A stretch of DNA of 64,000 nucleotides from Halomonas sp. 54_146 (GCF_001507855.1 NZ_LGEN01000008.1:44981-108980), one strand, 5' to 3'. Counted from the stretch's first letter, positions 5,657-64,000 are shown. Program-made: numbers and translations. Notes: generated by a model from the letters alone, not told the origin.

Positions 5657-7716
5657 CCCGAGGCGGGCTACCTAAACGCCAGCGCCTGATTGGCCTATGG
5701 CTTCTGCTCAGCGGTATCAGCCTGCTGGGCGGCGCTATTTTTGCTGCTTGGCTGGATGCCCAGCTCGCCCCCACGGGCTGGACAAGAATAGCCCTATGGC
5801 TGGGCAGTTTTTCCGGCGGCGCGACGATCTTCTTGGTGGGCTTACTGCTTGAACGCATGCTGTTTACGCCGCTGCGCCACTTACAGGTGCAGCTGGCGCG
5901 CTTAGTCGCTAACCCTGATGCCCGCGACGAACACCCACCCGAAGGCTGGTTAAAAGGGCTCGGGCCTGATCTACGCCGTGTGCGCGAGAGCTGGCGGGCA
6001 GATCGCAGCCGCCTGGCCACTGCCCATGCCGAAGGCGCACGCAGCGCCGCCCGCATTCGCCAGGAACTTGAAACGCTACTGCAAGTGCTCGAAACGCCGC
6101 TACTGCTGTGTGACCACCACCGCCGCCTGATGCTATTTAATCAGGCCGCGGAAGACTTCTTTGTTGGCAATACCGGCCTTGGTTTAGGTAAGCGCTTAGA
6201 AGCACTTTTGCCCGTTGCCAGTTTGCAGCAAGCGCTCAGCCAGCTGCCTAACGACGGCTCGCCCAGAGAACTGCTAGCCCCCTGCGATGACCGCTGGCTA
6301 AAAGTGATCCTGCGCCGCGTGCCGGGCAGCAACGGCGAAACGCTGCTGACCTTTAGCGACGCCACCGCCTCGTGGTCGAGTGAAATGGGGGTAAGAGCCG
6401 AACTTGCCGATATGCTGACACCGCTGCGTCAACATACCGCCAGCCTGACCAGTGCCGCCGATGCGCTGATTCAATTGCGCCACCAAAGCGATGCTGATAC
6501 GTCACTGCTGCGCCAACGGTTTGAGCGCGTTATTCACGAGGAAGGCACCACATTAGGTGACAACGTTGCCAAAATTGGCCAGTTGCTCGACGACCTGCAG
6601 CATCAAGGGGAGCGTTTAACGCCCATGTGGTCGAACGACTTCTGGCAGGCCTTGGATGAGCGCCTTGATCCCGAACACCGCCTAATCACCCCAGTCGGCA
6701 TGCCGGCTTGGTTTAAAGGCGATGCGCCCGCGCTAATCGCACTGTTTGACTCACTCGTCAAACATTTAAACGCCCACCTTCCCGACAGCGGCTTTGAGGG
6801 AGAAATATGCCTGGGTAATAAACGTGTCTATCTGGATCTTATATGGCACGGCAAAGCGATACCCGAACACGAACTGGCCGAATGGCGCCAGCAACCGCTG
6901 GCCTCGTTGCCGCTCAACCCTACCGTTGCGGATGTACTGCGCCAACACGCCAGCGATATTTGGAGCCTGGCCGACGCCGATGGCGTTCATGCCCGCCTGC
7001 GCCTTCCCCTGCCCGCCATGGAACGGGTCGGCCCGCCCAGGGAAACGGCACCGCCGCGCCCCGAGTTCCACGACTTTGGCATTGCTGACCTGCCCCCGCC
7101 GGATGAGGCACTGGCCAGCCGCTCGTTGCGCAGCCTGGAAGTGGTCGCCTTTGACACCGAAACCACCGGGCTTGAGCTGCGCCGTGGCGATACGGTCATC
7201 AGCTTGGGGGCTTGCCGCGTGGTCAACGCCCGTTTATTGGCAAGCGAAGCCTTCGATCAAAAAGTTGACCCAAAGCGGCCAATCCCGCCTGCCAGCACGG
7301 CGATTCACGGCCTCACCGATGCGGATGTGATTGGCGCGCCACCGCTGGATATCGTACTTACCCGCTTTCGCGACTACGTAGGCGAAGCCGTATTGCTGGC
7401 GCATAACGCCGCCTTTGATCTACTCGCTATCAGTCACAAAGGTGTCGTTTTTGATATTCCTGTCATCGACACCCTGCTGATTTCGCGGGCGCTGGATGAA
7501 GCCTTAGACGGGCACGACCTGGATAGCCTTGCAAAGCGCTATGATCTGGCATTTCCGCCAGGCACACGCCACACTGCCCTAGGCGATGCCCGCGTTACCG
7601 CCGAGCTATGGCTAGCCTTGCTGCCCCGCTTGGAAGCCCGCGGTGTAGACACCCTAGAGCAGTTGCTAGCGCTGCAGGCCAATGCCTTTGACCGACAGGA
7701 TGCCAGTGCCTCATGA
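5653..7716 (+). CDS. Membrane-anchored sensor-like protein with C-terminal DnaQ-type 3'-5' exonuclease
   Basis: Two N-terminal TM segments; C-terminal [20 protein letters not shown] ... [10 protein letters not shown] ... [13 protein letters not shown] (DEDDh). Start overlaps the upstream stop (ATGA). Confidence 0.85.
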
Positions 7717-7746
7717 ACCGCTTAACATTATGCAACACGTAACCTT

Positions 7747-7956
7747 ATGAAACCTTCAGGCGTGAAATCACGTAAAGCAGAGCGTTTGATGGCGTTAGTC
7801 GCTATCGCCCTATTACTGTTCTGCCCGCCGCTGATTATTGTGGTGGACCGTCTACCCTCTTTTAACGTGGGCTGGCTACCGCTGTATTTGTTTAGCGCCT
7901 GGGCGGTAGTGATTGGCTTAACCGCCTGGCTAATGGAACACCGCGCGGGGCACTGA
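7747..7956 (+). CDS. Small two-TM membrane protein
   Basis: 69 aa hydrophobic ORF sandwiched in the operon, 2 nt upstream of the histidine kinase. Confidence 0.7.
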   Translation: MKPSGVKSRKAERLMALVAIALLLFCPPLIIVVDRLPSFNVGWLPLYLFSAWAVVIGLTAWLMEHRAGH

Positions 7957-7958
7957 CC

Positions 7959-10715
7959 ATGCGTACAGAGCTGATTATTCTCGGCACGGCCTTTGGCTAT
8001 TTGGCACTGTTATTTGTGGTCGCCGCCTGGGGCGACCGACGCGCCGAACAGGGCCGCTCGATTATTGGTTCACCAACGGTATATGCCCTTTCTATCGCGG
8101 TTTACTGCACGGCCTGGACCTTCTACGGCAGCGTCGGGCGCGCTGCGGAGTATGGCCCCAGCTTTCTACTTATTTACCTGGGCCCTACCCTGGCAATGCT
8201 GATGGCCCCTTTTGTAATCCGCAAAATGGTGCGCATCGCCGCCCGCCAGAGAATCAGCTCCATTGCTGATTTTATCAGCGCCCGTTACGGCAAAAGCACC
8301 AGCTTAGGAGCGCTGGTGGCCTTAATGGCGCTAATCACGATCACCCCCTATATCGCCCTGCAGTTAAAAGCGATTACCGTTAGCCACGCAGTGTTGATTA
8401 ATTACCCTGATACCGCCAACGCCACCCTGATGGATGAACGCTTCTGGATGGATAAATCCCTCTGGGTCGCTTTGGTGCTGGCGGTGTTTATCATCTTATT
8501 TGGCACACGCCACCTGGATGCCAGTGAACGCCACGAAGGCATGGTGGCAGCCATCGCTTTGGAATCGTTGGTCAAACTGGTGGCGTTTATGGCCGTTGGC
8601 GTGTTTGTGGTGTTCGTGATGTTTGAAGGCCCGGCGGCGCTTTTTGCACAGGTTGCGGCCACGCCTGCACTGGTAGACAGTATGCGGCTGGACAATGCAC
8701 CGGGCGGGGTTACCGGCTGGGTAGGTATGCTGGTACTGGCGTTTCTGGCGTTTTTAACCCTGCCCCGCCAGTTTCAGGTATTGGTGGTCGAAAATGTCGA
8801 TGAGCAGCATTTAACGCGGGCAAGCTGGCTTTTCCCCCTCTACATGCTGCTGATCAACCTGTTTGTTATTCCGATTGCATTAGCCGGCCTGCTGCTGGGC
8901 GGCAGCACCGATGACCCCGACAGTTTTGTGCTAACGCTGCCGCTTTCAGCGGGGCTTGAAGGGCTGCCGCTGCTGGTGTTTATCGGCGGCCTTTCTGCGG
9001 CAACGGGCATGGTGATTGTGGAAACCATTGCGCTTTCCACGATGGTCAGCAACCAGCTGATTATGCCGCTGTTGCTGCGCTCCCGCCGCCTGCACCTTAG
9101 CACCCGGGGCGAGCTGGCCGGTTGGCTGCTGGGCATTCGCCGCGTGGCCATTGTGCTGATTCTGCTGCTTGGCTATCTCTACCACGCGCTAATTGGCGAC
9201 TCCTACAGCCTGGTGACGATTGGGCTGGTCTCCTTTGCTGGGGCTGCGCAGTTTGCCCCGGCGATGTTAATTGGCCTTTACTGGCGCGGCGCTACCCGCC
9301 AGGGGGCCACTATTGGCTTAATCGCTGGTTTCCTGGTGTGGTGCTATACCTTGCTGCTGCCCGGCTTTGCCCAGTCGGGCTGGCTGGATGCCGCCCTGCT
9401 TACCGAAGGCCCCTGGGGCATTGCCTGGCTGATGCCGTATGGTTTGTTCGGCCTCGAAAACTGGGATATTTATACCCATTCGCTGCTGTGGAGCATGTTG
9501 GCCAACGTGGGGCTGCTGGTGGGTGTTTCTCTGTTTACTCGCCCAACCCCACTTGAGCAAACCCAGGCAGCGCTGTTTACCGAAGCCATGCACCCGAACC
9601 TGCAAACCACGGCGCTATCTTCGTCACTATGGCGCGGGCAAACCACCCAAGGGGCGCTCAAAGAACTGCTGGTGCGTTATCTGGGCGCTCCAACCACCCG
9701 CCGCGTGTTTAGCCATAGCAGCACCAAGAGCGCTTATGCGGCGGATGAACCCGCCACCGCCGAGTTAATTACCCGTGCCGAGCAAGCGCTGGCAGGGTCG
9801 CTTGGCAGTGCCTCGGCGCGGGTACTCATCAACTCGGTGGTGCGCGGCGAGGCGCTGGATATCGAGTCGATCCTGAGCATTCTGGATACCACCTCACAGA
9901 CCCTTGAGTACAACCGCCGCTTAGAGCAGAAATCTCAAGAGCTGGTGCAAATCGGTGAAGAGTTACGCAGCGCTAACGAGCGGCTGCGCGAGCTGGACCG
10001 GTTAAAAGATGAGTTTGTGGCGATGGTCAGTCATGAACTGCGCACACCGCTCACCTCTATTCGCGCCTTTGCAGAAATTCTGCGCGATAGCATCGAACTG
10101 CCTGAGGAGAAGCGCCAGCATTTTCTTGGCGTGATTGTTCATGAGAGCCAGCGCCTGTCACGCTTGATTGAAGAGATTCTGGATCTTGCCCGCCTTGAGA
10201 GCGGCCGCTTAACCCTTAACCCGGTACCGCTTGACCTTGCTGCCCTCGCCCGCCACAGCATTGACACCATTGCGCATCTGCATAAAGAGCGTGGTATTGA
10301 GCTAGACGTGAACCTAGAGGCTGACCCGGCGATGGTCATTGGCGACCAGGATCGCTTAGAACAGGTGATTATCAACCTGCTGGATAACGCGGGTAAATTT
10401 GCCGACCGTGATCAGCCCAAAGTGCGCCTAGCGCTTTACCGCCACCGTCGCCACTTTCGGTTAAGCGTTGAAGATAACGGTGCCGGCATTAGCGCTGACG
10501 AGCGGGAGCGTGTGTTCGAAAAATTCCACCAAATACAGCAAGATAGCGATATTCCACGCGGGCGCCCCAAAGGCAGCGGTTTAGGCCTGCCCATCAGCCG
10601 AGGCATTATCGCCCATCTGGGAGGAAGGCTCTGGGTAGAAGATGCCAAACACTTAGGCGGAGCCTGTTTGACGCTGGAACTGCCTGCCGCACCTGATGCT
10701 GCTAATCCTTCGTAA
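7959..10715 (+). CDS. Sodium:solute symporter-domain hybrid sensor histidine kinase (CrbS/CbrA-like)
   Basis: N-terminal ~500 aa multi-TM SSS-like; MVSHELRTPLTSIRAFAEIL H-box, NLLDNAGKF N-box, GSGLGLPISRGI G-box. Confidence 0.88.
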   Translation: MRTELIILGTAFGYLALLFVVAAWGDRRAEQGRSIIGSPTVYALSIAVYCTAWTFYGSVGRAAEYGPSFLLIYLGPTLAMLMAPFVIRKMVRIAARQRISSIADFISARYGKSTSLGALVALMALITITPYIALQLKAITVSHAVLINYPDTANATLMDERFWMDKSLWVALVLAVFIILFGTRHLDASERHEGMVAAIALESLVKLVAFMAVGVFVVFVMFEGPAALFAQVAATPALVDSMRLDNAPGGVTGWVGMLVLAFLAFLTLPRQFQVLVVENVDEQHLTRASWLFPLYMLLINLFVIPIALAGLLLGGSTDDPDSFVLTLPLSAGLEGLPLLVFIGGLSAATGMVIVETIALSTMVSNQLIMPLLLRSRRLHLSTRGELAGWLLGIRRVAIVLILLLGYLYHALIGDSYSLVTIGLVSFAGAAQFAPAMLIGLYWRGATRQGATIGLIAGFLVWCYTLLLPGFAQSGWLDAALLTEGPWGIAWLMPYGLFGLENWDIYTHSLLWSMLANVGLLVGVSLFTRPTPLEQTQAALFTEAMHPNLQTTALSSSLWRGQTTQGALKELLVRYLGAPTTRRVFSHSSTKSAYAADEPATAELITRAEQALAGSLGSASARVLINSVVRGEALDIESILSILDTTSQTLEYNRRLEQKSQELVQIGEELRSANERLRELDRLKDEFVAMVSHELRTPLTSIRAFAEILRDSIELPEEKRQHFLGVIVHESQRLSRLIEEILDLARLESGRLTLNPVPLDLAALARHSIDTIAHLHKERGIELDVNLEADPAMVIGDQDRLEQVIINLLDNAGKFADRDQPKVRLALYRHRRHFRLSVEDNGAGISADERERVFEKFHQIQQDSDIPRGRPKGSGLGLPISRGIIAHLGGRLWVEDAKHLGGACLTLELPAAPDAANPS

Positions 10716-50751: not shown

Positions 50752-50845
50752 GAATGTTGCATAAAATGATTGCACCCAAGAAATGTCGCGCAAAAATAGG
50801 TTACTATCCAATCATTGTTACCACTGCCTCCGATATAATTCGCCA

Positions 50846-51322
50846 ATGACTGATGACAACCCACGCATTTCATTACCTACCGCCAGCATTCCTGGAGACG
50901 CGCTGCCGCCTGTTGAGCAGCACGCCCAGCAATATGCAACGGTGCGTAATGCCCACGAAACCGAGCTAATTGAAGACTACGTTGAGTTAATCGGTGATTT
51001 ACTCAAGCACCGCGGTGAAGCGCGCGCAGCGGATATTGCCAACCGCATGGCCGTCAGCCAAGCGACGGTTTCAAAAATGATCCGCCGCCTGAACGAGCTA
51101 GAGTTAGTCACTAGCAAGCCCTACCGCTCGCTGTTTCTAACCGAAGCAGGCCAGAAAATGGCCGAGACATCGCGCGCGCGCCACGATATCGTGCTGCACT
51201 TTTTACGCGCCCTTGGCGTTAACGATGCCACCGCGCGTATTGACGCCGAAGGTATGGAACACCACGTTAGCGACGAAACGCTTGCTACTATGCAGCGCTT
51301 TACCGAACAGCAGCTTCGCTAA
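50846..51322 (+). CDS. mntR: Mn-responsive DtxR-family regulator MntR
   Basis: EDYVELIGDLLKHRGEARAADIANRMAVSQATVSKMIRRLNELELVTSKPYRSLFLTEAGQKMAE ... EGMEHHVSDETL. Confidence 0.92.
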   Translation: MTDDNPRISLPTASIPGDALPPVEQHAQQYATVRNAHETELIEDYVELIGDLLKHRGEARAADIANRMAVSQATVSKMIRRLNELELVTSKPYRSLFLTEAGQKMAETSRARHDIVLHFLRALGVNDATARIDAEGMEHHVSDETLATMQRFTEQQLR

Positions 51323-57302: not shown

Positions 57303-57442
57303 CACTCCCCACACGCCGCACTATCGATCCTCGCATTAACTGTACGAGGTTTTCTGTGACGGATGGTGACGTCACGACTTCTTAGCCGTTTGCCTAGTCT
57401 GCTAAAATATCGCCAGCGCCCGACCCTTATTGTTTGAGATAT

Positions 57443-59518
57443 ATGTCATTGATAATTAAAAATTTTTGGGCGCGCCTAGCCGCTGCCATTATTATCCCCA
57501 TTTTTTTGGTCACTGGGGCGCTGTTCCCTATTGTCACGTTTCATTGGCAGGAGCGGGTCGACAGCACACGTTTAAACGCCGAAACGCTGCTTGAATCCGA
57601 GTACGACCTGCTGCTCCAGAACATGAATGAGAGCTTCAACCAAGTGCTGGCCACGGCGGAGTTCCCGCTGCTGAGACGGTTTTTGGCTAGGCAAAAAAAC
57701 CCTCAAGCGCAGCAAGAGAACCACACGGCGCAACATGACTGGGAGCAGACGGATGCGTTATTTAAGACGCTGATGACCCATTACGGCCGTTATACCCGAC
57801 TAACGGTGATTGACACTCAAGGCTTAGAGTGGATCGCCGCGACGACAGAACCTTTGCTGCCGCGCCCTCCCGTGGTGAGTCGCGCTGCGTCCCCCGCTTT
57901 TCAGAACGCCATGGCCCTACAGGCACGGGATCTCTATGTTTCACCGCCACGTTTAGGTACATCCGGTGATAGTGAAGCCTTCGTAACCACGGTTATTGAT
58001 ATCGCCACGCCCATCTTCGATGAACACGAACAACGCCTGGGCGTGCTGCTGTTTACTCTCGACTGGTCGCTTATCATTGCGTCGTTGCCCCATGCCCGGG
58101 AGGCACACCAAGGAAACGCATTACTGGTTGATGCACAGGGGCGCTGGCTGCTGCCCGATAGCGATAGCGATAGCGATAGCGATAGCAATAGCAATAGCAA
58201 TAGCAATAGCAATAGCAATAGCAATAGCAATAGCAATAGTCATCGAGAGGGTGAATGGTTCGGCCGCCCACTATCAGAACACCAGCCACTTATCTGGGCG
58301 GCCATGTCTGCCCGCAACCAGGGAACGGCCATCCTAGACGAGCATCTACTTAGCTTTCGGAGTCATGATCTGCGCACCCATCACTACCGCAGCCAGGCGG
58401 GGATGATTGTCAGCGAGGCGAACACCCAACCCTGGCGACTTGGCATTCTGCTACCCCATCCCAGCGTAAGAGGGCTGCTACAAGAGAGCCCCTTACAGCT
58501 GCTGGCGATTGCGTTGGTTTATCTTCTGTCAGTCGCCTTTGGCGTACTTTGGGTGCTCAGCAATCACCGCCTGCGGACGCTGCGACAGCGGGCGCTGCTC
58601 TTTTCACACGAAGCCCGCCAGTATGCTCGGGAGGTGCAAGGCCTCTATGAGTACGCGCCCTGTGGCTATCATTCACTCGACAGCCGTGGTCGGGTGGTCA
58701 AAATAAACAGCACTGAATTGAAGTGGCTGGGCTACCGTGCGGATGAGGTCATCGGTAAGCGCTATTACCGTGATTTGGTTACCCCGGCCACCCGTGACGC
58801 ATTCGATGCCACTTTTCAGCAGGTCACCATGGGGCGAGAGGCCGCCGCAGAATGCGAACTGATCTGCCGCGATGGCAGGCATTTGCCGGTCGCTATACAG
58901 GCTGCTGCTCATCTCACCGAGGCAGGCTTTCAATATTCCCGCGCTACTGTCTTTGACCTCAGCGAGCGCAAGAAACTTGAAGATCGCTTGGCCAAACAAG
59001 CGCTGACCGACCCGCTCACCGGTTTGGGCAACCGCCGCTACCTGGAAAACCAAGCGGCCATGGAGATCGCCCGCGCCGAACGCAGCAGAGCACCGCTGGC
59101 GCTTATTGTCATCGACCTTGACCACTTCAAGCGCATTAACGACACCTACGGGCACGATGTAGGCGACCGGGTACTGCAGGCCTTTGCTGCCACAGCTCAA
59201 AACCTGCTACGCGATGGCGATGTGCTGTGCCGTATGGGAGGCGAAGAATTCGCTGTACTGCTGCCAAACACGACCCGTGAACAAGCCATGCACGTCGCTG
59301 AGCGCCTGCGTGTTGCAATAGCGAACACGCCTACCAACATCGCTGATTCTTCGGCCGCCAATGAAGCGCTCATCGCCTATTCGGCGTCCTTGGGCGTAAC
59401 ACTCGTCAGTGCTGGGGAAACCTCGCTACAGCCCGCGTTTATACGTGCTGACCAGGGGCTTTATGCGGCAAAGGAGGCGGGGCGAAATCGGGTACACTGG
59501 CACATGCCAATAGCTTAG
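57443..59518 (+). CDS. Diguanylate cyclase with periplasmic sensor, PAS and GGDEF domains
   Basis: N-terminal TM, extracytoplasmic domain, second TM, PAS (YEYAPCGYHSLDSRGRVVKIN), DPLTGLGNRRYLE ... CRMGGEEFAVLLP. Confidence 0.93.
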   Translation: MSLIIKNFWARLAAAIIIPIFLVTGALFPIVTFHWQERVDSTRLNAETLLESEYDLLLQNMNESFNQVLATAEFPLLRRFLARQKNPQAQQENHTAQHDWEQTDALFKTLMTHYGRYTRLTVIDTQGLEWIAATTEPLLPRPPVVSRAASPAFQNAMALQARDLYVSPPRLGTSGDSEAFVTTVIDIATPIFDEHEQRLGVLLFTLDWSLIIASLPHAREAHQGNALLVDAQGRWLLPDSDSDSDSDSNSNSNSNSNSNSNSNSNSHREGEWFGRPLSEHQPLIWAAMSARNQGTAILDEHLLSFRSHDLRTHHYRSQAGMIVSEANTQPWRLGILLPHPSVRGLLQESPLQLLAIALVYLLSVAFGVLWVLSNHRLRTLRQRALLFSHEARQYAREVQGLYEYAPCGYHSLDSRGRVVKINSTELKWLGYRADEVIGKRYYRDLVTPATRDAFDATFQQVTMGREAAAECELICRDGRHLPVAIQAAAHLTEAGFQYSRATVFDLSERKKLEDRLAKQALTDPLTGLGNRRYLENQAAMEIARAERSRAPLALIVIDLDHFKRINDTYGHDVGDRVLQAFAATAQNLLRDGDVLCRMGGEEFAVLLPNTTREQAMHVAERLRVAIANTPTNIADSSAANEALIAYSASLGVTLVSAGETSLQPAFIRADQGLYAAKEAGRNRVHWHMPIA
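58157..58240 (+). repeat. Hexanucleotide tandem array (GATAGC)5(AATAGC)8(AATAGT)1 in coding sequence
   Basis: Direct count of 14 six-bp units encoding (DS)5(NS)9. Confidence 0.97.
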
Positions 59519-59528
59519 TGGCACGCGG

Positions 59529-61859
59529 CTACCGCGCCGCTGGCGGCACCGGTGCCTGCTTTGCGGTTGTTTTCTTGTTACGGGAAAAGATGTCCTGATA
59601 GCAGCGAATGAAAACATTTGGGAAAACACGACCCGCAAACCGCCCAATACGAATGAAGTCCACATCCAATAGCGGCATCAACATTTCCGGATTAACTTTT
59701 CCTCTCAGCGCGTGCCAGCGATAGGTGCTGGGCTGACGATGAAGCGCAAGGTTGAGGTTGTTCAGTTCCCCAACCAGGTAATAACCCTGTTCGGGGTCGA
59801 ACCACAGCCCCTGAAGACCAGGCACTTTTCTTAACCAAGAGCGTGGGTCATAGACCGGTCGATCGATCAGCTTGGATAAAACGAGCCACCACATTCCTAA
59901 GACTTTTTTGTCACCTCCTAAATAGGCGGTGGATTTCTCGTTTAGCGCCTTGCGTAGCGGGTCAAAAGCCATGCGTTCATGAACGAGGTGAGCATGGACG
60001 GTTTGTTGCCAGTCCTGGCAGAGCGTGGGCAGGTTCGTGACTAACTTTGACAGCTGCGTTTCTGTTGAACTATCAGCGAACAGGCTTTGAACAAAATCTT
60101 GGGTCAGTGAGTTTTCGTAACCTGCAGGTAACAGCCAGCTACGCGTTGCGAACTTGTTCTTCCGACCTTCAAGCACCGGCATCTGCTGCTCGATGCCATC
60201 GGGCATGATGAGCGGCGTGTTATTGCCAGGATTCTGGATCAGGATGGTGTCTTGGTCACGTAATACGATCACTTGAGCTCGGATAAACTTATTGACGTCC
60301 TTTTGAATATCTTGCTCCGGCCCAAAACGGTACGGCCACTGCTCAACCACCAACCGCATTAGCTGTTGGCAGTTGACTGCGTGCTTCATCAGCAAAGCAT
60401 TCAGTTGTTCTAGTGTCTGCGGCTCAGATAGAGCGAAAGGCAGAACCACCGGGCGGTCATGCTCTACAGTAAACAGATAGCCATCTGAAATCAGCGTTAG
60501 GCCATCGAGTAGATGAGCCTGTTGAGGCAAATACTCTGACACTTTTGCCGAGGCATCATTGAGTAACTGTTTGAAATGCAGCTCTTTAATGGACACCACC
60601 AGCTTTAGGGCAACAAAAGACGCTTGTGCTTTCAACTGCTCAAAGCGGTAGTCAAAGTAGTCCGCATAGACTCCGGTAATGTTTCCTTCATCATCCATCG
60701 TGAACCACTGCTCGACTGACGTTTCATCATCCAGCTCGTAGGGGTTCAGTATGATGTGCTGGACAGCACAGCGCTGAGAGAAGCGATTGGTATATACGTA
60801 AGGGTCCTGTGGTGTGCCTTCGCTCTGATCAAGCACAACAAGGTAGCGTTGGTCAGGAAGCAGATTCAAATGCTCGATGTTCTCGGGCTGATCCTGCATC
60901 AGCGTTAGGTCGACTTTAAGCCCTTCTTGAAGTAGTAATTCGTTAAGCCAATCCCGCAGCTCCTCGATAGGTGTATCCACATTCTCACGGGCATCGACCA
61001 GCGTGACCTCGAACTGTTCGACTGGCAACGAACGAAGCCTGTGGTGTTTGTCTGATTTATGCTGGCTTGGGTATTTTTGCAAATGGAGGGTTTCGGGCAA
61101 GAGATGAAAGCCATACTGTTGGGCTGCTTCAACAAAAGATTGGATCACGCGCTGAATCAGGTAACCACGGCTGCTACGCAGCCCTTCGGGGGTCTTTAAG
61201 TCAATGAAGGGGCGTTGCTTACGTGTCCCTTTTGCATTACTTATCTCTCGGAACAACACGCCCTGCTCGTCGTTGCCAGAAAACCACCGGTCTAGCCATC
61301 CGCTTTTATTTCGCTTCCATAGCTTGCCTGTCCGTGGTGACTCAGGGGCAAGTTGGCGTAGTGCTACGTTAGAAAATTTTATCTTAACTTCCGTTGTGTT
61401 GCCGTCACTTCGCTGATTTACATACCCCTCGATATCAATGGCTTCGATACCCGGATTTTTCCCGCCCCACTCATTGATTTTCAACAAAGGCTTCCCAAGG
61501 GCACGAAAGCCCCTGGTATGGCCCGCTTTATGGCCGATTTGGCGTAACAAAAGCTTCAACCACACTGGGTTTAATCTCGGGGAGTATTCGACGCGCTCAG
61601 GTTCGAGCGTTGTATTATCGCGCGTCTTTATAACAGGAAGCGGATCCCCTTCTTCGGTTAACGCAACGTACAAGTTACCACCGCTCATATAGTATGGATA
61701 AGAAGCCTCTGAAAGGTTTTCGTCCAGCACCTCTTTCCATTCCTGAAACTTCATTACCGCATTAGAGAGCGGATAGCGATACACCACTAGCCGGCTTGCC
61801 CGCTCTGAATCTATCTGATCGTCTCGATAGGTTAACAACGAAATGCGAAGATCTGTCAT
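59529..61859 (-). CDS. DdmE-like protein (candidate Argonaute-like partner), 776 aa
   Basis: Second gene of a two-gene operon 7 nt after a helicase-nuclease; MID-like RYLVVLDQSEGTPQDPYVYTNRFSQRCAVQHI. Assignment by architecture and operon context. Confidence 0.5.
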   Translation of the reverse strand: MTDLRISLLTYRDDQIDSERASRLVVYRYPLSNAVMKFQEWKEVLDENLSEASYPYYMSGGNLYVALTEEGDPLPVIKTRDNTTLEPERVEYSPRLNPVWLKLLLRQIGHKAGHTRGFRALGKPLLKINEWGGKNPGIEAIDIEGYVNQRSDGNTTEVKIKFSNVALRQLAPESPRTGKLWKRNKSGWLDRWFSGNDEQGVLFREISNAKGTRKQRPFIDLKTPEGLRSSRGYLIQRVIQSFVEAAQQYGFHLLPETLHLQKYPSQHKSDKHHRLRSLPVEQFEVTLVDARENVDTPIEELRDWLNELLLQEGLKVDLTLMQDQPENIEHLNLLPDQRYLVVLDQSEGTPQDPYVYTNRFSQRCAVQHIILNPYELDDETSVEQWFTMDDEGNITGVYADYFDYRFEQLKAQASFVALKLVVSIKELHFKQLLNDASAKVSEYLPQQAHLLDGLTLISDGYLFTVEHDRPVVLPFALSEPQTLEQLNALLMKHAVNCQQLMRLVVEQWPYRFGPEQDIQKDVNKFIRAQVIVLRDQDTILIQNPGNNTPLIMPDGIEQQMPVLEGRKNKFATRSWLLPAGYENSLTQDFVQSLFADSSTETQLSKLVTNLPTLCQDWQQTVHAHLVHERMAFDPLRKALNEKSTAYLGGDKKVLGMWWLVLSKLIDRPVYDPRSWLRKVPGLQGLWFDPEQGYYLVGELNNLNLALHRQPSTYRWHALRGKVNPEMLMPLLDVDFIRIGRFAGRVFPNVFIRCYQDIFSRNKKTTAKQAPVPPAAR

Positions 61860-61866
61860 AGCGCTA

Positions 61867-63907
61867 TCATCCTTTGAAATTCATTGGCAACGAGGCCGCC
61901 TGGGCTTGGTATCGCCGAGCCAGTTCGCAGAGCCCAGCGAAGCCTGGCGTGGTCTTGTTTTGCTGATCGGGATGTATACAGCTAGATAGCACGAGGATGG
62001 GGGCGTCGTTGACGTCCATCGGGTTCAACTGCAAATCAAACCCCTTAAGCGCAGCCTCACCGTCGGACCCAACCAGATTGGCAACGACCAGCCTTGCATC
62101 CTTAAACAGGTGCTTACGCAGTGCCAATACTTTCTCAGTTAGCGCCGTTCGTTCTGCATTTCCTGAGTCATCGCTATTTAACGATGCCTGGAAAGCCTCA
62201 TCGGCCTGCCTAAGCGTTGCAAGCCCCCAGAACTTCGCATCTATAAAGATCGGTGTATTAACGATATGGAAGTCGTAGAGTTCCAGCGTTCGTTGATGCA
62301 ATAACTTTGTTGAGCACGTGATCGATTCATTATCGAACAGCCCACGTAGTGCTTCCTCGCCAATTCGCCCTTGCAAAATGCGCTGTGCAAAATGGGGGTG
62401 AAACATAAAATGCTCCTCAAGCCCACTGCTCACTTCCGCGCTTGTGGCATAGCCGTGGTGGTTAAACCAGCGAACTATCGCTTCATGGTGAGGAACCCAT
62501 CGGTAAAGAGGCTTGAGGCTGTACAGCCTTGACGCTGGTGCACGGTCACTCAAGAATCGACCATCGCCACATTGCCATACGCCTTTGGCTGGATCAGCAT
62601 CAGCGGGTAAACGTATGCACGACCAATCCTTCAGTGACAGCGTCTCGATGTGCCTGAGCCCAAGATCCTTGCCCGCAAACGAACAGGCAAGGTCTCGCCT
62701 CAACGCTGCCCGCCCAATGGACTCCCATGTACGCTGTATCTTCTCCGTCACTCCTGGTTCACAGTCAGCCTCACGGGAGTAGCGAATAAGACCAACAAGG
62801 TGGTCATCAATGATTTCTTTAATCTGGCGCCCATCTTGAACGGGCGCGAAGAGCAGCGTTAAAGGATCAATAGAAACTTGAGAAGCTTGCTTCGCAGCCA
62901 ATGCATCGAGCAGCCCCTCATTGAGAGAGCTGATTAGAAATCGATGTCGACTAAACCCATGCGGATTTTCCGCGTACCTGGTGAGCGCGCCCGCAAGCTC
63001 TGTTTGTATGTAGATGTTGGTTTCTGGCGTTTTATCCCACACCCGCTCTAAGCGGCCAACCTGCTGTTGAACATCGGCGGCCAAGTTAGACACATAATCA
63101 TCGGTGGCTTTATATACCACGTTATTAAGTTGGCTAACTTGGCGCTTATCGGACACCATCAGCGAGCCGATGTAGTGTCGGTAGTCGCGTTCGGATATTT
63201 GTGCTGCTTGTCGCAACTTCTGTACTTGGCGGATCTGTGCGCCAATCGTTGCCATTTGCTCCCCGCCAGCTTTCGCCTCTGGCACCGAAAAGTAGAAATG
63301 TCGTGCTTCATATAAATACAGACACGTCAGATCTGACTTCTTTAGTCTCCCGTCCTTCCAAAACTCGAAGTCCAGGTTAATCCCGTTAGTGGCTGATGCA
63401 ACCTGTGTCATGACGACCACATTAAAGGGGGTGCTAAAGGCTTGAGCGTAGAGATCCGCAAAGCCCAGGGACTTTTGGCTTTGCGCAGTGAGAAGACACA
63501 GAATCAGAACATGACCCTGCACGACAACCGGCTTGAACCAATGAGACTTAAAAAGCGCCTCTGGTATTGCAGCGCGGTCTGAAGAGTTAAGCTTTTCCGA
63601 GAACCCTGCTAAATTCCGCCGGCTCTCAAACGCCCTATCATTTTCCAACCACTTACGCAGGTAGCGGATAGAGTTCACGAAAGCCAAGTGTCCGCGATGC
63701 TGCTCGTTGCCTGCCGCTTTACCCATAATCGAAAGCATAGCGAAAAGGCAGTTATACCTATGCTCATGCGTCGACTCTGCGATTGACGCCTGTTCTGCCT
63801 GAAAGAAGTCGGCAGTCAACAGATCAAGGGCAGCGGCAATCTCGGGGGTGTCGCTTTTACTGGTAAAGTCACAAACTTCAACGGAAAGCTGGTTCTTACG
63901 CTGTGAA
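61867..63907 (-). pseudogene. DdmD-like SF2 helicase/PD-(D/E)XK nuclease, 3' part; 5' part missing, apparently cut by an IS
   Basis: Motif V-like VVVMTQVASATNGINLDFE, motif VI-like QQQVGRLERVWDKT, nuclease-like ELYDFHIVNTPIFIDAKFW; no Walker A or DEAD-box; listed ORF starts at an internal TTG and the frame stays open upstream into the IS-like sequence. Confidence 0.6.
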
Positions 63908-64000
63908 GTGGTTATAGTTTCCCGGACACACAGACGCAGATAATATTATCTGCCCATCAAGGTGTGTGCCATGAGTCAGAAGAAAAGCAATTCGTATACA
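63908..64000 (+). mobile_element. Left end of a putative IS3-family insertion sequence, truncated by window edge
   Basis: tagtttcccggacaca-type terminus, 16-bp palindrome cagataatattatctg, then ATG at 63971 opening MSQKKSNSYT, like IS3 OrfA N-termini. Exact boundary uncertain. Confidence 0.55.

Follow-up and report, generated by a model that had tools for sequence, protein, structure and literature searches.

Two minus-strand genes, at 59529-61859 and 61867-63819 and separated by 7 nt, lie at the end of a 64,000-nucleotide stretch of Halomonas sp. 54_146 DNA (the window). RefSeq labels both genes hypothetical, and the question they raise is whether they form a plasmid-defence operon of the kind represented by DdmDE, whose elimination of plasmids in Vibrio cholerae is established. 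A first-pass annotation, made from the window alone, had proposed a divergent Halomonas-type DdmDE or a sister system. On sequence evidence we read the pair as an antiplasmid system made up of two genes and belonging to the DdmD/ApsA superfamily, in which it would form a divergent branch next to DdmDE and ApsAB; we give this reading a probability of about 0.7.

Gene layout and the split helicase gene

The ORF calls agreed with the first-pass annotation on two minus-strand genes 7 nt apart, the second encoding 776 aa. The pairing is not due to chance, since two-gene homologues align over 97% of both proteins. The features of the locus are as follows.

59529-61859, minus strand: partner gene, second gene of the operon; intact ORF of 776 aa, remotely DdmE-like/Argonaute-like
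59769-59819, minus strand: C-terminal block of the partner, GLQGLWFDPEQGYYLVG, common to DdmE
60570-60842, minus strand: MID-like region of the partner, LVVLDQ...Y354...Q367...K425; invariant residues and a weak local DdmE match
61867-63903, minus strand: 3' half of the gene for the DdmD-like helicase-nuclease, covering motif VI and the C-terminal PD-(D/E)XK nuclease
62227-62277, minus strand: PD-(D/E)XK nuclease signature YDFHIVNTPIFIDAKFW, aligned with (Y/F)D...IDxKxW of DdmD
63043-63066, minus strand: SF2 helicase motif VI, QQVGRLER
63904-64000, strand unassigned: left end of an IS3-like IS, with terminal repeat TGAAGTGGTTATAGTTTCCCGGACAC and orfA start ATGAGTCAGAAGAAAAGC; interrupts the helicase gene

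The helicase ORF at 61867-63819 comprises 650 aa when counted from position 63819, which is merely the first internal TTG. The TQVASATNGINLD stretch is present at 63370-63408. Upstream of 63819 the reading frame stays open to the edge of the IS, and the window ends inside this IS, at the end of contig C89; the helicase "gene" of the window is therefore a 3' fragment. The IS was assigned to the IS3 family by eye, from its imperfect terminal inverted repeats and the start of orfA. Its left end (TGAAGTGGTTATAG...), beginning at 63904, turns up again at or near a contig end in seven further places, giving eight left ends of the IS3-like IS in the whole assembly.

The remainder of the gene was found on a second contig, C24. 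An intact relative used as query matched the genome at just two places, the window locus and C24:191-1876, and the C24 ORF terminates exactly at the right end of the IS. On a family profile of 10 sequences, which included both fragments, the C24 fragment covered positions 1-640 and the window fragment positions 638-1297. The IS is multicopy, so contig ends by themselves do not prove adjacency, and the join rests on assembled contigs; C89 and C24 could in principle be unrelated fragments that both end by chance at copies of one IS. We regard this as very improbable. It would leave to coincidence that the genome has just two matches and that these cover complementary parts of one profile, as well as the 3-bp repeat CTG that adjoins the IS ends on both flanks. 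Independent support for the join comes from the anchor genes of the two contigs: in sampled relatives, orthologues of the gene at 50783-51322 and of an acyl-CoA dehydrogenase gene on C24 lie ~7-14 kb apart in conserved order and orientation. (The C24 core gene encodes this dehydrogenase and not a Lon-type protease.)

The helicase-nuclease gene is thus split by an IS3-like insertion in this genome. Because the IS lies between the Walker A, DEFE and SAT motifs of C24 and the window's motif VI and nuclease, the predicted defence system is most likely dead in this strain. The analysis was done on relatives, with the two halves kept separate.

The interval between the two anchor genes (window 51322 to the contig end plus C24 2000-3480) is itself variable, containing bet-like genes in the sampled relatives and other genes together with the defence operon here (gene names judged from sequence). 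The neighbouring diguanylate cyclase gene at 57434-59518 has a long DSDSDS...NSNSNS dipeptide run at 58157-58234, arising from a 6-bp tandem repeat that is possibly variable in length.

Homology to DdmD and probable remote homology to DdmE

A profile of nine helicase family members, searched against the PDB, identified chains of V. cholerae DdmD at 1.1e-18 and no other chains up to an E value of 1. The PADLOC DdmD model matched the window fragment at 1.1e-4 and intact relatives at 3e-10 to 4e-10. Comparison by hhalign with two genuine DdmD proteins gave a probability of 96% and an E value of 4e-9 over 1,025 columns; genuine here means encoded beside DdmE genes, one such DdmE matching V. cholerae DdmE at 2.4e-21. 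The motifs GPTGxGK[ST], which begins at residue 30-51 in this family, DEF[DE], SAT, QQ[VI]GR[ILM]ER and D-x-K-x-W all align with DdmD. Two earlier readings were borne out when the window protein was aligned with genuine DdmD and intact relatives: the string QQVGRLER corresponds to helicase motif VI, and the PD-(D/E)XK-like signature falls at the nuclease site. Judged by its sequence, the long protein is homologous to V. cholerae DdmD, an SF2 helicase with a C-terminal PD-(D/E)XK nuclease.

The 776-aa partner had no credible match in Pfam, NCBIfam, PADLOC or the PDB, and its relatives had none in Pfam/PADLOC. Single-sequence searches (PADLOC, phmmer) revealed no significant similarity of the partner to DdmE or any Argonaute, and Pfam detected no MID, PIWI or PAZ domain in it. 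The first-pass claim of a stretch resembling an Argonaute MID domain holds in part: a conserved LVVLDQ...Y...Q...K block is present, with Y354, Q367 and K425 invariant in the seven aligned partner members, but library and PDB searches identified no MID/PIWI domain. AlphaFold with single-sequence input returned a pLDDT of 33 for the partner (33-36 over two models), too low for reading a fold. A pPIWI-RE/DinG module, considered as a candidate, was dropped, as there was no Pfam pPIWI_RE match and the helicase is DdmD-like.

An initial profile comparison of the partner with two DdmE sequences, excluding V. cholerae DdmE, was negative (probability 0.5%). A later DdmE profile added residues 74-685 of V. 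cholerae DdmE, read from a printed alignment, and with this profile hhalign gave a score of 40.25 over 606 colinear columns, with an E value of 7e-4 and a probability of 26%. Column- and block-shuffled targets (3 x 100) scored at most 38.2, 0 of 300 reaching 40.25, while the reversed target scored 17.7 and none of 92 unrelated single sequences of similar length exceeded 23.9. When V. cholerae DdmE was likewise entered as a single sequence, it scored 35.2. When the comparison was made in 120-column windows, the 12 best scores lay on the diagonal with a mean relative offset of 0.06, compared with 0.24-0.72 for four controls. Blocks common to the partner and DdmE are KELxxK (residues 425-430) and GxxWxDxEQGxYxVG (residues 683-697; GFFYNREQGMYFAG in V. 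cholerae). The MID-like LVVLDQ...DPY...Q block aligned less firmly, 2 of 60 shuffles matching the score of that region.

Because V. cholerae DdmE and the shuffle controls were brought in after the negative first comparison had been seen, the DdmE match carries less weight than a planned test would. The partner is a probable remote homologue of DdmE by these profile scores; its assignment, which depends on a single weak comparison of profiles that was improved once the first had proved negative, is the main weakness of the analysis. Taken together, the homology of the helicase to DdmD and a colinear partner-DdmE match above controls favor the earlier suggestion of a divergent DdmDE or sister system.

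Relatives and mobile carriage

Intact pairs consist of a helicase of about 1,283-1,322 aa and a partner of 760-823 aa. A partner homologue follows the helicase gene at every intact locus, with gene order kept and an intergenic spacing of 0-10 nt among copies. The closest relatives, in genomes G880 and G1205, have helicases 51-63% identical to that of the window, and the G880 partner is 59% identical. Searches by tblastn located the pair in records of Proteus mirabilis and on plasmids of Citrobacter and Salmonella, and genome searches gave further members within the family and the order to which E. coli-like genomes belong; among complete E. coli genomes, 26 of 5,426 had a match. One intact pair is that of E. 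coli A32 (NZ_CP028743), and the G880 relative has another. No relatives were detected in scans of genome-contig and viral-contig collections. As neither gene occurs in any of 196 sampled relatives of the window genome, the operon was probably acquired horizontally. For the same reason, and with the relatives found being mostly enterobacterial, the first-pass label "Halomonas-type" is a poor one.

The operon is carried in several mobile settings: an ICE, SXT/R391-like to judge by its gene order, that also contains type III restriction genes, a MobH relaxase and a DUF4268 gene; tRNA-Asn islands, where the operon lies beside a MazE/PemK-type toxin-antitoxin pair; and surroundings with Tn7-like genes, marked by TniQ or a TnsA-like N domain. 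A ddmD gene also lies at a contig end near TniQ-like genes, identified by eye (L074, G927, 6532-8044), which suggests that genuine ddmDE too can be carried in a Tn7-like setting. In two genomes a gene for a 1,941-aa NACHT-domain protein directly follows the partner gene, the ORFs overlapping (L020 11926-17751; L030 478-6303); it is possibly a third gene of the operon or else an adjacent defence gene.

About 140 Salmonella plasmid records contain a helicase homologue broken into three reading frames, cut at about residue 952 and beside an IS630 gene (for example L015, Salmonella Infantis plasmid pR22.2169_195k, 6997-9858). The plasmids form a widespread family, most of them conjugative, and the copy that they carry is decayed; just 2 Salmonella records have a match to the partner. 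In the Citrobacter plasmid copy (L012 4562-5406) the helicase gene has an IS1 at its start, and its annotated ORF has no Walker A motif.

Proposed position among antiplasmid systems

Like DdmDE (V. cholerae; PDB 8u0u, 8u3k, 9ezx, 9bf1 and others), the present system is a two-gene operon with a full-length homologous SF2 helicase bearing a C-terminal PD-(D/E)XK nuclease, and with a partner that has a weak colinear match to DdmE. The proteins differ in size, however, sampled DdmD proteins having 1,194-1,199 aa and DdmE 653-690 aa, and DdmE models miss the partner. Motif VI also differs, being QAVGRAGR or QALGRMCR in DdmD. Long-B prokaryotic Argonautes that act with nucleases share the proposed logic, in which an inactive Argonaute directs a separate nuclease, but the partner described here has no Pfam PIWI, MID or PAZ match.

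The other relevant system is ApsAB of Escherichia coli ST38, in which a helicase-nuclease and an Argonaute-like protein remove plasmids (Zongo et al. 2024, PMC11096173). According to that work, ApsA and DdmD belong to one broad family joined by intermediates, ApsB shows no sequence similarity to DdmE, and CNR81D10, a second E. coli system with 28/25% identity to ApsA/ApsB, destabilises a ColE1 plasmid (PMC11096173). With the partner failing DdmE models and motif VI being near that of ApsA, ApsAB, compared here by its published motifs, is as close a comparison as DdmDE. Shared features are the combination of a helicase-nuclease with an Argonaute-like partner, occurrence in enterobacterial genomic islands and inactivation by IS. 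Of the ApsA helicase motifs, SAT is present here.

The operon might therefore belong to the ApsAB branch proper as a distant member, perhaps of the CNR81D10 type. Motif VI ends in ER both here and in ApsA (QAVGRVER; PMC11096173) and is more like that of ApsA than that of DdmD, the invariant Y354, Q367 and K425 recall the Y...Q...K of ApsB with an identical Q-to-K spacing of 58, and the branch occurs in E. coli genomic islands. Other features separate the two. The MID motif of ApsB is Y[X]3K...QG...K, and its MID lysine is essential in ApsAB (PMC11096173); the complete motif was absent from the seven aligned partner members, in which the first lysine position is N, R, K, Q, T, I and Q (N in the window protein) and the G of QG is H. 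ApsA carries its Walker A motif GFGKS at 218-222, after a long N-terminal extension that is absent here, and has DELH as motif II rather than DEF[DE] (PMC11096173). Two E. coli genomes, including the published ST38 reference, were scanned at their tRNA-Leu sites with the profile in six frames, and no ApsA-like gene was matched; these sites contained other islands or none. Membership of the ApsAB branch proper is a serious but not a favored alternative. A third branch of helicase-nuclease/Argonaute-like antiplasmid systems, whose partner has sequence features of DdmE as well as of ApsB, is put forward just as tentatively; if it is the true reading, the partner would link two families for which the literature sees no sequence relationship, and would imply one ancestral guide-loading protein. 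By its published-motif comparison with ApsAB, the branch may be an intermediate class between ApsA and DdmD, or of the CNR81D10 type.

An antiphage or general foreign-DNA function, with a DdmD-type enzyme reused alongside an unrelated, non-Argonaute sensor, is unlikely. The lack of a recognisable domain in the partner, a weak PADLOC PbeC match (1.6e-4) in one intact helicase and neighbouring genes that include type III restriction, DUF4268 and NACHT proteins would all suit such a role. Nevertheless, the partner-DdmE profile match is colinear, and ApsAB, which targets plasmids, left eight phages unaffected (PMC11096173).

For the preferred reading, an antiplasmid system of the DdmD/ApsA superfamily, a mechanism can be proposed by analogy with DdmDE and ApsAB. 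The partner, presumed to have an Argonaute fold with a MID-like pocket, would recognise plasmid DNA, probably either through a short guide of nucleic acid or through a DNA structure linked to replication, and would load the helicase-nuclease onto the plasmid. The helicase would then unwind and translocate, and the PD-(D/E)XK domain would nick or degrade the plasmid, leading to its loss. We found no experimental work on this operon branch in the literature.

The helicase gene is repeatedly broken beside insertion sequences: in this genome, in many plasmids of Salmonella and, close to its start, in Citrobacter. Plasmid selection is known to inactivate apsAB, 62% of evolved clones being mutated there, mostly by IS1 insertions (PMC11096173). 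The probable IS inactivation here matches the behavior of apsAB under plasmid carriage, as a parallel only.

Judged from homology, the operon is real and represents a divergent branch of a published family, which may prove to be an already known type. The genes of the branch are annotated as hypothetical proteins, and PADLOC misses its partner. Antiplasmid systems influence which bacteria retain resistance plasmids, and if our reading is true, the presence of this branch on SXT-type ICEs, in tRNA islands and in Tn7-like surroundings would mean that DdmDE/ApsAB defence reaches further than is now known. The common ancestry of DdmE and ApsB would then become testable.
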